Positions 6,338 to 13,335 of a DNA stretch of 64,000 nucleotides are shown here, piece by piece. The translations under genes and the position numbers were made by a program. The notes beneath the pieces are model-generated. The model was not told the DNA's origin. It saw only the letters and a program-made list of their open reading frames with translations, and made no database searches. Every line of letters starts with the position of its first letter. Within the stretch, counting starts at the first letter, position 1. The DNA is taken from assembly GCF_013302895.1 (NCBI RefSeq), contig NZ_VJOK01000001.1:1527415-1591414 (forward strand), given 5' to 3'. This DNA is from Streptomyces albus subsp. chlorinus. GTDB lineage: Bacteria > Actinomycetota > Actinomycetes > Streptomycetales > Streptomycetaceae.

Positions 6338-8053
6338 TCAGCGGGAGCGGGCCTTGAAGGCGGCCTTGCGGGCTGCCTTCGCGACGTGCTTGTCGGGATG
6401 CACCCGGCCCATGGTCTCCAGCACGTCCCCGGTGGCGGGGTGGTCGACCCGCCACGCCTTGTCGAAGAACCCCGTGTGCTGGTCGACCAGGTCCCGCACC
6501 AGTTCGCGGAGTTCCTCGGGCTCGCCCGCGGTCGCGACCTGGGCGGCGATGGTGTCGATGGTCAGCCAGAAGACCATCTCCTCGTCGGGCTGGGGCACCT
6601 CGGCCGCACCGCGCTCCGCGAGCCAGACCCGGGCCAGCCCGCCCAGTTGCCGGTCGTCGAGCACCTCGCGCAGCGCGGGCTCGGCGTCGGGGCCGGCCAG
6701 GGAGAGGGCCTGCTGGCAGGCGAGGCGGCGCACCGGTGCCTCCTCGTCGCTGCCGCGCGCCGCCGCCAGGAGTTCGCGGGCCGCGGCCGGCGTGCCGCCG
6801 TCGCCCCGGGCGGCGAACCAGCCCTCGATCTCGCTGCGCGCGTTGTCCTCCGTGTAGACGGGCAGGGCGGCCAGCAACCGGTCCGCCGCGGCGCCGGCGA
6901 GGTCGCCCACCGCGGGGACGTCCATGCCGGCCTGCCGCATCCGTTCCCGGACACCGTGCAACCCCAGCGGGGTGAGCCGCACCATGCCGTACCGGGAGAC
7001 GTCCTCCTCGCCGAGTTCACCGAGTTCACCGAGTTCACCGAGTTCACCGAGTTCACCGAGTTCGCCGAGGTCACCGTGTTCGCCGAGGCCGCCGAGGTCC
7101 GCGCCCGGCTGCTCGCCGCCCGGCGTCCGGCGCCCCTCTCCGAAGGCATCGGCCTCGCCGGACTCGCCGGTCTCGTCGGCCTCCTGGGTGAGGGCCTCGT
7201 CCACCGGCTGGTACTCGACCAGACCGGTCGGCTCCAGCATGCGGAACTGCTCGTCCAGCCGCATCATCGCCGTCGAGACCTCTTCGAGTACCTCGTCGGT
7301 GGGCTCGTCCATCCCCTCGGGGACGATCATGGACGCCGCCAGCACGGGGAGGGGGACCATGGAGCCGGCCGCCACGGCGGGGTCGGTGGCCGTGAGCAGG
7401 TAGAGGTTGCCGAGCGCGCTGTCGAGCGCGGCGGTCTCCTCCTCGGGGTCCCAGTCCACGGCGTCGAGGTCGAGGGCGTCCGGGTCCACCTGGCCGTCCT
7501 CACCGATGGCCCCCTCGATGCCGCCCAGCAGCTCCTCGAAACTGGGGGTCGCGGCGTCCGCGAGGACCGTGTCCAGGCCGTTCTGCCACAGGTCGAGAAT
7601 GTCGGCGGGCCCCGGCATGGCCGCGTCGGGGGCACCGGTGAGGCCGCCCAGTTCCTCGTCGGGGGTGGCCAGTCCGACGGGCTCGTCGCTGCTGGGCGGA
7701 CCGTCGGTGCCGGCGTCCGGGCCGGCGCCGTCCGCCGCGTCGTCCTCCTCCACGGTCAACAGCCCCGTGTCGACGGCGAAGTTCCAGGCGTCGGCGGCGA
7801 GGGCCGGAGCCTCCTCGTCGCCGGTCAGACCCAGGTGTGCGGCGGCCTCCTTCAGCTGCTCGGACAGGAGTTCACCGCCGGCTCCCACCGGCACCCCCCG
7901 CGTCGCTGACCCGCTCCCGCGCGCCCAGCGGGTGAGTTCCACGGCGCGTGAGAGGAGCGGTGCGGCCAGTGCGTCCCGCGCCAGTTCGGCATCGGAGGGC
8001 AGCCGTACGGGCGGCAGGGTGGGACGGTCGTCACCGGTCATGTGGGGGTTCAT
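6338..8053 (-). CDS. Conserved hypothetical acidic protein with Gly-Glu-Leu repeat (571 aa)
   Basis: This 571-residue soluble, very acidic protein has no recognised catalytic motif. The N-terminal 100 residues are helical (LPSDAELARDALAAPLLSRA). The middle is Asp/Glu/Gly-rich, and about residues 331-347 are a run of Gly-Glu-Leu triplets encoded by a 9-bp tandem repeat. The C-terminal 200 residues consist of Ala/Leu-rich paired helices (for example EEAPVRRLACQQALSLAG) that resemble HEAT-type repeats, ending in a basic tail, KHVAKAARKAAFKARSR. I infer a scaffold or adaptor, not an enzyme. The ATG at 8053 is abutted by TAGGAG; the in-frame ATG at 8041 gives 12-nt spacing and may be the true start. 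The gene is divergent from the secreted nuclease. Confidence 0.75.
   Translation of the reverse strand: MNPHMTGDDRPTLPPVRLPSDAELARDALAAPLLSRAVELTRWARGSGSATRGVPVGAGGELLSEQLKEAAAHLGLTGDEEAPALAADAWNFAVDTGLLTVEEDDAADGAGPDAGTDGPPSSDEPVGLATPDEELGGLTGAPDAAMPGPADILDLWQNGLDTVLADAATPSFEELLGGIEGAIGEDGQVDPDALDLDAVDWDPEEETAALDSALGNLYLLTATDPAVAAGSMVPLPVLAASMIVPEGMDEPTDEVLEEVSTAMMRLDEQFRMLEPTGLVEYQPVDEALTQEADETGESGEADAFGEGRRTPGGEQPGADLGGLGEHGDLGELGELGELGELGELGELGEEDVSRYGMVRLTPLGLHGVRERMRQAGMDVPAVGDLAGAAADRLLAALPVYTEDNARSEIEGWFAARGDGGTPAAARELLAAARGSDEEAPVRRLACQQALSLAGPDAEPALREVLDDRQLGGLARVWLAERGAAEVPQPDEEMVFWLTIDTIAAQVATAGEPEELRELVRDLVDQHTGFFDKAWRVDHPATGDVLETMGRVHPDKHVAKAARKAAFKARSR
7011..7064. repeat. 9-bp tandem repeat (CCGAGTTCA) inside a coding sequence
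   Basis: Five perfect copies of CCGAGTTCA (7011-7055) are followed by a sixth with one change and by degenerate units to about 7090. Being a multiple of three, copy-number change keeps the reading frame of the 571-aa protein and alters only the length of its Gly-Glu-Leu tract. Confidence 0.9.
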
Positions 8054-8211
8054 CTCCTACGGGTCCTACGGGTTCGCCGGACGGTGCGGACCCCAGCGTA
8101 GACGGGTTCTGTACCCGGGTGCCCGAATCGTGCAGCGGCCACCTAACGGCCTGGTGACAGCCCGCGCCCCCGACCTGTCACGACCTTGACAACTGCCGTT
8201 CGCCCGCCATG

Positions 8212-8227
8212 CTTTACGCGCGTAAAG
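8212..8227. promoter_or_regulatory. Perfect 16-bp palindrome, candidate operator
   Basis: CTTTACGCGCGTAAAG is a perfect inverted repeat with no spacer, located 20 bp after a TTGACA hexamer and 210 bp before the nuclease start. The AT-containing outer half-sites stand out in a GC-rich background, which suggests a dimeric repressor site. The regulator is unknown. Confidence 0.5.
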
Positions 8228-8287
8228 AATGCGCGCACAGTGCGTGCACACGCGACATGCGCCACGCGACACGTGCACACGTCGCCT

Positions 8288-8344
8288 GCGCACAGGTGTC
8301 ACACGCGCACAGGCGCCGCATGTGCGCAAGCGTCACCTGTGCGC
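8288..8344. repeat. Three copies of GCGCACAGG (two direct, one inverted)
   Basis: GCGCACAGG occurs at 8288-8296 and 8305-8313 (17 bp apart) and as its complement at 8336-8344. In RNA the first and third copies can pair (GCGCACAGGTG with CACCTGTGCGC), forming a large stem in the nuclease leader. Confidence 0.6.
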
Positions 8345-8436
8345 GCCCAGCGAGTGCGCGACCGTACGACAACAGCACGCCGCCCCGCCCCTCCTTCGTT
8401 CCGTACGTCCCCCACAACGTCCTCCGGAGGCTCTTC

Positions 8437-10371
8437 GTGCCGTCCCGATCCCCGTCCCGCTCCTCTTCCCACCCCGGGCCCCGTCCCTCGTCCCACCCCT
8501 CGTCCCGCTCCTCCTGGCGGCCGGGCCGGGCCGCGGCCCTGGTGGTCGCCGCCGTGTGCGCCACGCTGCCGGCCCTGCCCGCCTCGGCGGCGGCCCCGGC
8601 CGCCTCGTCCTCCCCCACGGCCCGCGCGCCCCGGATCCACGACATCCAGGGCACGACCCGGCTGTCCCCCCTGGCCGGAGAGCGCGTCACCGACGTGCCC
8701 GGCGTCGTCACCGGGGTGCGGGACTTCGGCCAGGCGCGCGGCTTCTGGCTCCAGGACCCGCACCCGGACCGGAACGCGGCCACCAGCGAGGGCCTCTTCG
8801 TGTTCACCGGCAAGGAGAGCCCCGGTGTCGCCGTCGGGGACGGTCTGCGGGTCAGCGGCCGGGTCACCGAGTTCTACCCCGGCGGAAAGGAGGCCGGCGG
8901 CCAGTCGGTCACCGAACTGACCGGCGCGTCCTGGAAGACGGACGGCACCCGGCGCGGCGGCGGGCTCCCGGCCGCCTTCCGGCTCACCCCGCGCTCCGTA
9001 CCGGAGGCGTACGCGCCCGACGCCGGGGGCGGCAGCATCGAGAACCGCGCGCTGCGGCCCGGCCGGTACGCGCTGGACCGGTACGAGTCGCTGGAGGGCA
9101 TGCGGGTGTCCGTACACGACGCGGGGGTCACCGGGCCCACCTCCCGCTACCACGACCTGTGGGTGACCACCGACCCCGGCCAGAACCCCACCCCGCGCGG
9201 CGGCACCCTCTACGGCGGCTACGAGGACCAGAACGGCGCCCGGATGAAGGTCTCCTCGCTCCTCCCGCTGGACGAGCACCCCTTCCCGCAGGCCGACGTC
9301 GGCGACGAACTGGACGGCACCACGGCAGGCCCGCTGGACTACGAGCAGTTCGGCGGCTACACGCTGCGCGCCACCACACTCGGCACGCACCGCGACAACC
9401 ACCTGGAGCGCGAGCGGACCCGCAAGCAGCGCCGCGACGAACTGGCGGTGGCCACCTACAACGTGGAGAACCTCTCCCCCAGGTCCGACCCGGCCAAGTT
9501 CGCGCGGCTGGCCGAGGGCCTGGTCAGCAACCTCTCCTCCCCCGACATCGTCACCGTCGAGGAGGTCCAGGACGACACCGGCCCCGACGACGACGGCACG
9601 GTCGGCGCGCGCAAGACGCTCACCATGCTCACCGACGCCGTCGAGAAGGCGGGCGGCCCCTCCTACGCGTGGCGCCAGATCGACCCGGTCGACCAGGCCG
9701 ACGGCGGCCAGCCGGGCGGCAACATCCGTGTCGCCTTCCTCTACAACCCCGAGCGGGTCTCCTTCACCGACCGCCCCGGGGGCGACTCGACGACTCCCGT
9801 GAAGGTCGTCGAGAAGGGCGGCAAGCCAGCGCTGTCCGCCTCGCCAGGGCGGATCGCGTCCCAGGACCCGGCGTGGAAGGCCAGCCGCAAGCCGCTGGCG
9901 GGCGAGTTCCGCTTCCGGGGCCGCACGGTCTTCGTCGTCGCCAACCACTTCAGTTCCAAGGGCGGCGGTGATCTGGACGGGGACCAGCCCATGGAGGGCC
10001 GCTTCCAGCCGCCGGCCAGGCACTCGGAACCGCAGCGCGTCGAGCAGGCGAAGCTGCTGAACGCCTTCGTACGGGACATCCGGGCGGTGGATTCCCGGGC
10101 CGTCGTCGTCGCGGGCGGCGACTTCAACGACTTCCCGTTCTCCCCCACCCTTAAGACCCTGCGCTCGGGCCACGCCCTCACCAGCCCGATGAACCAGCTG
10201 CCCGGCGACGAGCGCTACGGCTACGTCTTCAACGGCAACTCGCAGACGCTGGACCACCTGCTCACCAGCCCGGGTGCCGGGCGCCCCGACTACGACATCG
10301 TCCACATCAACGCCGAGTTCGCCGACCAGACCAGCGACCACGACCCGTCGGTGGTACGCCTCCCCCGGTAA
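8437..10371 (+). CDS. Secreted endonuclease/exonuclease/phosphatase-family nuclease
   Basis: This 644-residue protein has a signal peptide: a long Ser/Arg/Pro n-region, then AAALVVAAVCATLPALPASA before mature Ala-rich sequence. After it comes an OB-fold-like segment (GERVTDVPGVVTGVRDF, about residues 80-180) typical of ExeM/NucH-type extracellular nucleases. The C-terminal half is an EEP catalytic domain: TYNVENL near 340, EEVQDD near 378, NHFSSKGGGDLDG near 502, GGDFNDF near 558 and SDHDPSVV near 632. These supply the Mg-binding Asp/Glu/His residues. It probably degrades extracellular DNA or nucleotides. The GTG at 8437 is chosen because GGAGG sits 6 nt upstream and the signal peptide starts there. 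Convergent with the EI24 gene. Confidence 0.88.
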   Translation: MPSRSPSRSSSHPGPRPSSHPSSRSSWRPGRAAALVVAAVCATLPALPASAAAPAASSSPTARAPRIHDIQGTTRLSPLAGERVTDVPGVVTGVRDFGQARGFWLQDPHPDRNAATSEGLFVFTGKESPGVAVGDGLRVSGRVTEFYPGGKEAGGQSVTELTGASWKTDGTRRGGGLPAAFRLTPRSVPEAYAPDAGGGSIENRALRPGRYALDRYESLEGMRVSVHDAGVTGPTSRYHDLWVTTDPGQNPTPRGGTLYGGYEDQNGARMKVSSLLPLDEHPFPQADVGDELDGTTAGPLDYEQFGGYTLRATTLGTHRDNHLERERTRKQRRDELAVATYNVENLSPRSDPAKFARLAEGLVSNLSSPDIVTVEEVQDDTGPDDDGTVGARKTLTMLTDAVEKAGGPSYAWRQIDPVDQADGGQPGGNIRVAFLYNPERVSFTDRPGGDSTTPVKVVEKGGKPALSASPGRIASQDPAWKASRKPLAGEFRFRGRTVFVVANHFSSKGGGDLDGDQPMEGRFQPPARHSEPQRVEQAKLLNAFVRDIRAVDSRAVVVAGGDFNDFPFSPTLKTLRSGHALTSPMNQLPGDERYGYVFNGNSQTLDHLLTSPGAGRPDYDIVHINAEFADQTSDHDPSVVRLPR

Positions 10372-12970: not shown

Positions 12971-13290
12971 CAGTGGGCTCCTCCCAGGTTGAGGACGACG
13001 ACGCCGCAGATCACCAGCAGCAGGCCGAGGAGCTTCAGCGCGGTGACCGCCTCGCCGATGAACACCATCCCGATCAGTGCGATGGCCGCCGTCCCCGCGC
13101 CGGACCAGATGGCGTAGGCGGTGCCCACCGGCATGGTCTTGAGGGTGTGTGCGAGCAGCAGGAAGGCGACGACGTATCCGGCGGCGGTGAGCAGCGAGGG
13201 CACCAGTTTGCTGAAGCCGTCGCTGTACTTCATCGCCGTCGTGCCCAGCACCTCGGCGAGGATCGCGCCCGCGAGCGTCACATAGACCAT
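12970..13290 (-). CDS. Small multidrug resistance (SMR/EmrE-type) efflux transporter
   Basis: This 106-residue protein has four transmembrane helices, the standard SMR size. The membrane-embedded Glu of helix 1 is present (LAGAILAEVLGTTAMKYSDG, Glu13), followed by KLVPSLLTAAGYVVAFLLLA, TMPVGTAYAIWSGAGTAAIA and KLLGLLLVICGVVVLNLGGA. The KYSDGF and PVGTAYAIW motifs place it in the proton-coupled drug/quaternary-cation exporter branch. The ATG at 13290 is used in place of GTG 13308: a TACGCT hexamer lies 7 nt before it, and six extra residues would otherwise cover the palindromic operator. Operon with the downstream tetR gene. Confidence 0.92.
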   Translation of the reverse strand: MVYVTLAGAILAEVLGTTAMKYSDGFSKLVPSLLTAAGYVVAFLLLAHTLKTMPVGTAYAIWSGAGTAAIALIGMVFIGEAVTALKLLGLLLVICGVVVLNLGGAH

Positions 13291-13292
13291 AC

Positions 13293-13304
13293 GTACGAGC
13301 GTAC
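13293..13304 (-). promoter_or_regulatory. Palindrome GTACGAGCGTAC overlapping a leaderless -10 box
   Basis: The interrupted palindrome GTACG-AG-CGTAC overlaps the -10 hexamer TACGCT (13298-13303, minus strand), which ends 7 nt before the SMR start codon. A repressor bound here would block transcription initiation, so it is a good candidate operator for the TetR protein encoded by the second gene of the operon. Confidence 0.5.
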
Positions 13305-13335
13305 ACAACGGGCGGCGGCCGGACCGCGGCGCGCG

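Follow-up and report, generated by a model that had tools for sequence, protein, structure and literature searches.

The window analysed here is a stretch of 64,000 nucleotides from Streptomyces albus subsp. chlorinus. It contains a nuclease gene with its promoter and a long leader, as well as a divergent neighbouring gene:

6338-8053, minus strand: divergent conserved gene (571 aa), neighbour of the nuclease gene across the genus (123 of 126 nuclease loci)
8186-8191, plus strand: TTGACA, -35 hexamer of the nuclease promoter, found in all 21 aligned promoters
8208-8213, plus strand: CATGCT, likely -10 element after a 16-nt spacer, from the alignment of 21 promoters
8212-8227, no strand assigned: putative operator palindrome CTTTACGCGCGTAAAG, found at all 17 Streptomyces orthologue loci whose upstream DNA is available
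8229-8380, plus strand: strain-specific leader tract of alternating purines and pyrimidines, with GTGCGC/GTGCAC words and GCGCACAGG (alternation score 67)
8426-8430, plus strand: GGAGG, ribosome-binding site, kept ahead of GTGCCG in close orthologues
8437-10371, plus strand: gene for a predicted secreted ExeM/NucH-like nuclease with an endonuclease/exonuclease/phosphatase domain (PF03372, E 4.7e-15)

The nuclease appears similar to the ExeM/NucH extracellular nucleases, in that it matches NF033681 (ExeM_NucH_DNase; E 3.4e-44), but its score of 151.6 bits lies under the family cut-off of 300 bits and membership is not claimed; its secretion is predicted from the N-terminal sequence. An upstream-extended reading frame from an ATG at 8209 was rejected, since that ATG falls within the -10 element, and in several orthologues the frame closes before it reaches the promoter. 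The divergent 571-aa gene has no match to a Pfam family at E 0.001, and contains a short run of 9-bp repeats (CCGAGTTCA; 7015-7075) that encode repeated E-L-G on the minus strand. Elsewhere in the window, a conserved CATACGTACGAGCGTACACAACG element (13288-13310) stands near a TetR-like gene and directly upstream of a gene that, by eye, is small-multidrug-resistance-like. In relatives (e.g., L004:8827-8881, L007:8792-8847, and L017:8823-8880) a second GTACG..CGTAC dyad follows, and the window element seems to retain the first dyad only; this element is perhaps the operator of the nearby TetR-like regulator.

An earlier note on this DNA described the region ahead of the nuclease gene as a repeat- and palindrome-dense leader, and the elements that it listed are all present: TTGACA, a perfect 16-bp palindrome, three repeat elements, and GTGCGC/GTGCAC words. 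That description merges two independent parts: one, at 8186-8227, is a promoter-operator that is conserved, and the other, at 8229-8380, is a leader tract specific to the lineage. Perfect 16-bp palindromes are not rare by themselves (five in the 64-kb window); within the genome of the window strain, 8212-8227 is the sole place that lies within two mismatches of CTTTACGCGCGTAAAG. The window CATGCT overlaps the left arm of the palindrome, and several orthologues read CAGACT at the -10 position. Transcription would start near 8220, at about the centre of the palindrome. A simple consensus scan of 8000-8500 reported no sigma-70-like site, which in our reading is because the -10 element is weak.

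A protein search with the nuclease identified 29 loci, of which 18 are from Streptomyces and 17 of these include upstream DNA (L012 starts at a contig end). The palindrome region was found with at most three mismatches before the nuclease gene in all 17 of these Streptomyces loci, and had no match in the 11 non-Streptomyces loci (L020-L027, L029, L030, and L032). We aligned 21 promoters: that of the window, the 17 from the protein search, and three from motif searches (L066, L068, and L069). The dyad is kept at a fixed place in these promoters, with 30 nt (18 promoters) or 31 nt (three promoters) from the start of TTGACA to the invariant ACGCGCGT core. The dyad columns are the best conserved part of the promoter, with a mean information of 1.83 bits compared with 1.54 bits for the -35 region, 1.07 for the -10 element, 0.79 for the spacer, and 0.33 for the leader. 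Dyad mismatches (out of eight) number at most one in 13 promoters, two in four, and three in four. The sequence in 12 of the 20 aligned relatives is CTTTACGCGCGTAGAG, one letter off the perfect palindrome of the window, and the right arm has diverged in L004, L005, and L019.

Across 392 sampled Streptomyces genomes, the exact 16-mer YTTTACGCGCGTAGAG is present in seven, and the pattern TTGACA-N(20-27)-ACGCGCGTNNANA in 126, once each (reversed control: one match), with two-thirds of the genomes lacking the pattern. All 126 loci were found through this pattern, which makes conservation of the letters it specifies a given. The nuclease is encoded downstream in all 126 (best segment 52-100% identity), and a divergent homologue of the 571-aa gene is present in 123. 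The distance from the start of TTGACA to the core is 31 nt in 106 loci and 30 nt in the other 20, the pattern having allowed 26-33. In a S. coelicolor-type clade (many of L081-L109), a conserved TACATGGC(C/T)GAAACC lies directly upstream of TTGACA, and is not found in the window; these words presumably resemble AdpA or GlnR half-sites.

Half of the nuclease leaders carry a second, inverted copy of the operator, TTTCTACGCGCGTC: 63 of 126 with at most two of 14 mismatches, and 68 of 126 with at most three, whereas a reversed-motif control never fell under four mismatches. The second copy is downstream, at a core-to-core distance of 40-102 bp overall and of 43 bp in 34 of the 63. The window leader has one site only, its best match to a second copy having six of 14 mismatches; the multi-site operator suggested in the earlier note thus does not hold for the window strain.

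Recurrence of the site elsewhere in the genome was assessed at several stringencies. In the genome of the window strain TNTACGCGCGT has 16 matches, two of them the nuclease palindrome read on either strand and 14 at other places. Sites of the form TCTACGCGCGT number eight, compared with about four expected under a Markov model, and all eight are promoter-proximal, within about 130 nt of a gene start:

TCTACGCGCGT sites, same genome: before purS, a PnrA-type ABC lipoprotein gene (PF02608), the adenosine deaminase gene, and deoC
TCTACGCGCGT sites, same genome: before genes for purine nucleoside phosphorylase, an NCS1 permease (PF02133), a secreted RNase (PF00545), and a GH25 muramidase

Seven of these eight sites are thus at nucleoside, purine, or RNase genes, which places the element at promoters of linked function. 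Three of the sites (L292, L293, and L298) overlap upstream open frames, yet stand before add, deoC, and the RNase gene. Six TGTACGCGCGT/TATACGCGCGT sites with the same core are, by eye, at no recognised nucleoside gene of this genome. Because TCTACGCGCGT is only twice as frequent as expected, the weight of the argument falls on what the genes do and on the conservation of the sites, and not on how many sites there are. The 16-mer allowing three mismatches shows no excess in the same genome (33 matches vs. 38 in the control), for which reason a large regulon defined by loose matching was dropped; in eight of nine genomes there were fewer matches than in the control. The purS sites (L289:1501 and L311:6436 in the genome of the window strain; L246, L260, L265, and L283) lie in a region shared with an lsr2-like gene, and the site might also touch lsr2.

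The sites are kept at orthologous promoters of other species. In stretches fetched from three genomes (G330, G384, and G405) the site precedes add, deoC, and pnp in all three (homology by tblastn); it also precedes the PnrA-type gene in two (G330 and G405; the G384 stretches contain no homologue) and purS in G384. A consensus, TCTACGCGCGTAGA, was derived from 21 sites picked by motif, eight from the genome of the window strain and 13 from these three genomes; 13 of the sites have one mismatch to it, six have two, and two have three. The window palindrome departs from the consensus at a symmetric pair of positions. By our reading, the site at add, pnp, and purS is just upstream of a -10-like hexamer, and at the nuclease gene it lies over the -10 element and the start.

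In 12 genomes with two nuclease sites, TTTCTACGCGCGT occurs within one mismatch 8-16 times per genome (139 in total; reversed control 0-4). Two of the matches in each genome are the nuclease pair, and there are 115 others, of which 39 were fetched, from nine of the 12 genomes; the fetched set is complete only for G330 (10 sites) and G269 (nine sites). Promoter sites among them precede genes for a HAD acid phosphatase (six genomes), an S1-type protease (five), purS (four), and deoC (three), and in G330 also a PhoX phosphatase gene and an RNase gene (one genome each). Gene identities are from Pfam on one example each, with tblastn for purS, deoC, and RNase. Genes that fit this functional set stand behind six of the 10 sites in G330 and four of the nine in G269; the remaining four and five, respectively, are coding-like or at genes with no evident link. 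Matches at F-Y-A-R codons at a gene start (L249/L258/L267/L273), by look a coding coincidence, were not counted toward the regulon, nor were coding-like matches in the last part of an Abhydrolase_8 gene that precedes a DUF4429 gene (L250/L259/L268/L275 and L282/L284). Among the sites with no evident link is GTTCTACGCGCGT, conserved between DUF397-like and HATPase_c_2 genes (L251:1501, L261:1501, L269:1501, and L276:1501, in G330, G269, G013, and G157), neither of which is linked to nucleosides.

We consider it likely that the palindrome is the operator of a dimeric transcription factor, which would control a Streptomyces regulon for scavenging purines, nucleosides, and nucleic acids, with the consensus TCTACGCGCGTAGA. 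Conservation, fixed geometry, and recurrence of the site at related promoters are properties of the sequences themselves; we infer repression, a ligand, and a single protein that reads all sites. The preferred mechanism is repression, because the sites at add, pnp, purS, and the nuclease gene would all fall inside the footprint of the polymerase: at the nuclease promoter, protein bound over the -10 element and the presumed start would block RNA polymerase, and the repressor would be released once scavenging becomes worthwhile, as signalled by nucleosides, purines, or nucleic acids outside the cell. It is quite possible, if short of probable, that TCTACGCGCGTAGA marks an undescribed genus-wide regulon of Streptomyces under one repressor, by which secretion of hydrolases that act on dead biomass is coupled to nucleoside uptake, nucleoside catabolism, and purine synthesis. 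The hydrolases of this genus-wide regulon would, with the same reservation, be DNase, RNase, PhoX and acid phosphatases, serine protease, and muramidase.

As for the regulator, a rough gene list for the 120-kb nucleoside region of the genome of the window strain (4.73 to 4.85 Mb) has no regulator gene adjoining a site; the regulator-like genes noted there by eye are of LysR, HxlR, and MarR type, together with a response regulator. One site in this genome (L308:9427-9440) lies between the GH25 muramidase gene and a divergent gene for a MarR-family regulator, which by the logic of autoregulation is a weak candidate for the regulator. The palindrome has a central CG, and a central CG is common in LacI-type operators.

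The conserved element could instead be a mere promoter feature, such as a start-site or discriminator sequence of a particular form of RNA polymerase, with no dedicated regulator; its overlap with the -10 element and the presumed start would suit this, as would the outcome of the regulator survey above. We regard this explanation as distinctly unlikely, given that the palindrome is placed differently relative to the likely -10 element of add, pnp, and purS (upstream of it, in our reading), that 63 of 126 genomes have a second inverted copy 40-102 bp downstream, and that the genes behind the sites form one pathway. Another explanation, that the element acts as RNA, would have mRNA stability or translation controlled by a 5' hairpin, with either the palindrome or the pair of inverted copies as its stem. 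The copies in relatives are indeed complementary over 13-14 nt, with loops of widely varying length, and at one edge position both sides change jointly in seven of 68 genomes. However, this joint change is from G-C to T-T, which is no pair. The inner pairs of the two-copy stems are nearly invariant and the outer pairs vary in the second copy; relatives with two sites show no pair-restoring changes in the first copy to match. These uncompensated changes, and the lack of a second copy in half of the genomes (including the clade of the window), favour two DNA sites over an RNA hairpin, and the same element stands upstream of the likely -10 element in other genes. For the window leader itself, no Rfam family scored above its gathering score, and folding was not clearly beyond dinucleotide shuffles (z = -1.07 for RNA 8218-8450, -0.32 for 8230-8365, and -1.59 for the opposite strand); a reading as RNA structure was dismissed on these two grounds, and the structured 5' leader proposed in the earlier note finds no support beyond base composition. 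Overall, action of the element as RNA is very improbable.

The operator reading, which we retain, concerns 8186-8227 and leaves the tract at 8229-8380 to be explained. Purines and pyrimidines alternate in 81% of steps over 8231-8364. The alternation score of the best segment (8229-8380) is 67. By comparison, 200 mononucleotide shuffles of the window reach no more than 32, an 800-kb sample of the same genome (some 19 kb of it N) no more than 31, and the remaining 125 nuclease leaders no more than 21. The tract contains two copies of GCGCACAGG (8288-8296 and 8305-8313) and one of the inverse CCTGTGCGC (8336-8344), and there are no further copies of either in the 64-kb window. It has no counterpart in the orthologous leaders examined, and the distance from the core to the first GGAG is 210 nt in the window vs. 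41-182 nt in 20 relatives. Blast searches with the leader identified no other copy in the same genome save its own inverted half. At E values of 0.01 or less, 71 of 392 genomes had matches; the strongest four from other genomes correspond to the promoter block, and the rest are short stretches, mostly within the tract. On the minus strand, 8231-8254 contains two overlapping terminator-like hairpins (shuffle mean 0.0), which point toward the side of the divergent gene, yet are upstream of its start.

This tract probably stems from a recent gain of low-complexity sequence by the 5' leader in the lineage of the window. It may have a tendency to form Z-DNA. A function of the GTGCGC/GCGCACAGG tract in the window strain, such as adjusting nuclease expression through Z-DNA formation or protein binding in the leader, would accord with an alternation so far beyond the 800-kb sample and with a position directly after the presumed start site. 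It is nevertheless rather unlikely: none of the other 125 nuclease leaders has the tract, its fold is not unusual, and similar low-complexity tracts occur at unrelated genes of other Streptomyces (e.g., L037 and L046). The tract in L037 (1473-1572; G190) is a tandem array of units of about 22 bp (GTGCGCGTGTACGTGGCGCGT), and is also alternating in purines and pyrimidines. The multi-site operator of the earlier note, in which one protein binds the palindrome and the GCGCACAGG repeats together, draws on the adjacency of the two and on the capacity of repeats to serve as operators. We consider it extremely improbable, given that orthologous leaders keep the palindrome and lack the tract, and that the tract contains no copy of the operator; the GCGCACAGG words were discarded as operators because the best operator match there has six of 14 mismatches, and neither they nor the GTGCGC words are conserved. 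Comparison with orthologues, proposed in the same note for palindrome and repeats alike, thus upheld the palindrome and found no counterpart of the repeats. The term operator is borne out for the palindrome by its fixed spacing from TTGACA in orthologues and its recurrence at functionally related promoters, and this half of the interpretation probably grows into an undescribed regulon; the half about the repeats comes down to a peculiarity of the window strain.

In the course of their development, Streptomyces break down some of their own mycelium, whose DNA and RNA they can reuse. If the genus-wide regulon with consensus TCTACGCGCGTAGA is real, it would be a switch for the recycling of dying mycelium or of foreign nucleic acid. 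A short, near-invariant site at this set of genes makes the link from digestion to use directly testable, with a probe for the regulator known to the base; furthermore, purine metabolism also feeds ppGpp and antibiotic production.

Certain regulators and genes described for S. coelicolor are relevant for comparison. XdhR, a repressor tied to purine salvage and ppGpp, resembles the proposed regulator in being a Streptomyces repressor linked to purine salvage, and differs in that the accessible part of its source describes it for the xdhABC operon only (PMC6627660). WblC/WhiB7 is named as repressing the promoters of SCO4914 (deoC) and guaB2, among others; the accessible part of that source gives no such palindrome, and its topic is translation-targeting antibiotics (PMC7157823). 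SCO4914 is identified as deoxyribose-phosphate aldolase in the part of its source available to us (PMC3293853). Some nucleases and the adenosine deaminase SCO4901 are more abundant in S. coelicolor than in a compared strain, with no mechanism given in the accessible text (PMC7244524). Our searches of the open-licence literature yielded no description of the present operator, nor any operator or regulator that ties extracellular nucleic-acid digestion to intracellular nucleoside use. PurR, both the LacI type of enterics and the ppGpp-responsive type of Bacillus, is comparable in that the TCTACGCGCGTAGA set includes a promoter of purine biosynthesis (purS), whereas catabolic and uptake genes dominate in the TCTACGCGCGTAGA set. 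The known PurR boxes are, to our knowledge, unlike the TCTACGCGCGTAGA site, and the operators of the DeoR, CytR, and NupR families that we know of also differ from it. DeoR and CytR control genes for nucleoside uptake and breakdown, and the GntR/HutC-type regulator NupR of Bacillus thuringiensis, as far as the consulted portion of its description goes, controls nucleoside transport. The TCTACGCGCGTAGA set shares with these types the nucleoside uptake and breakdown genes, and adds to them a secreted DNase, RNase, and phosphatases.
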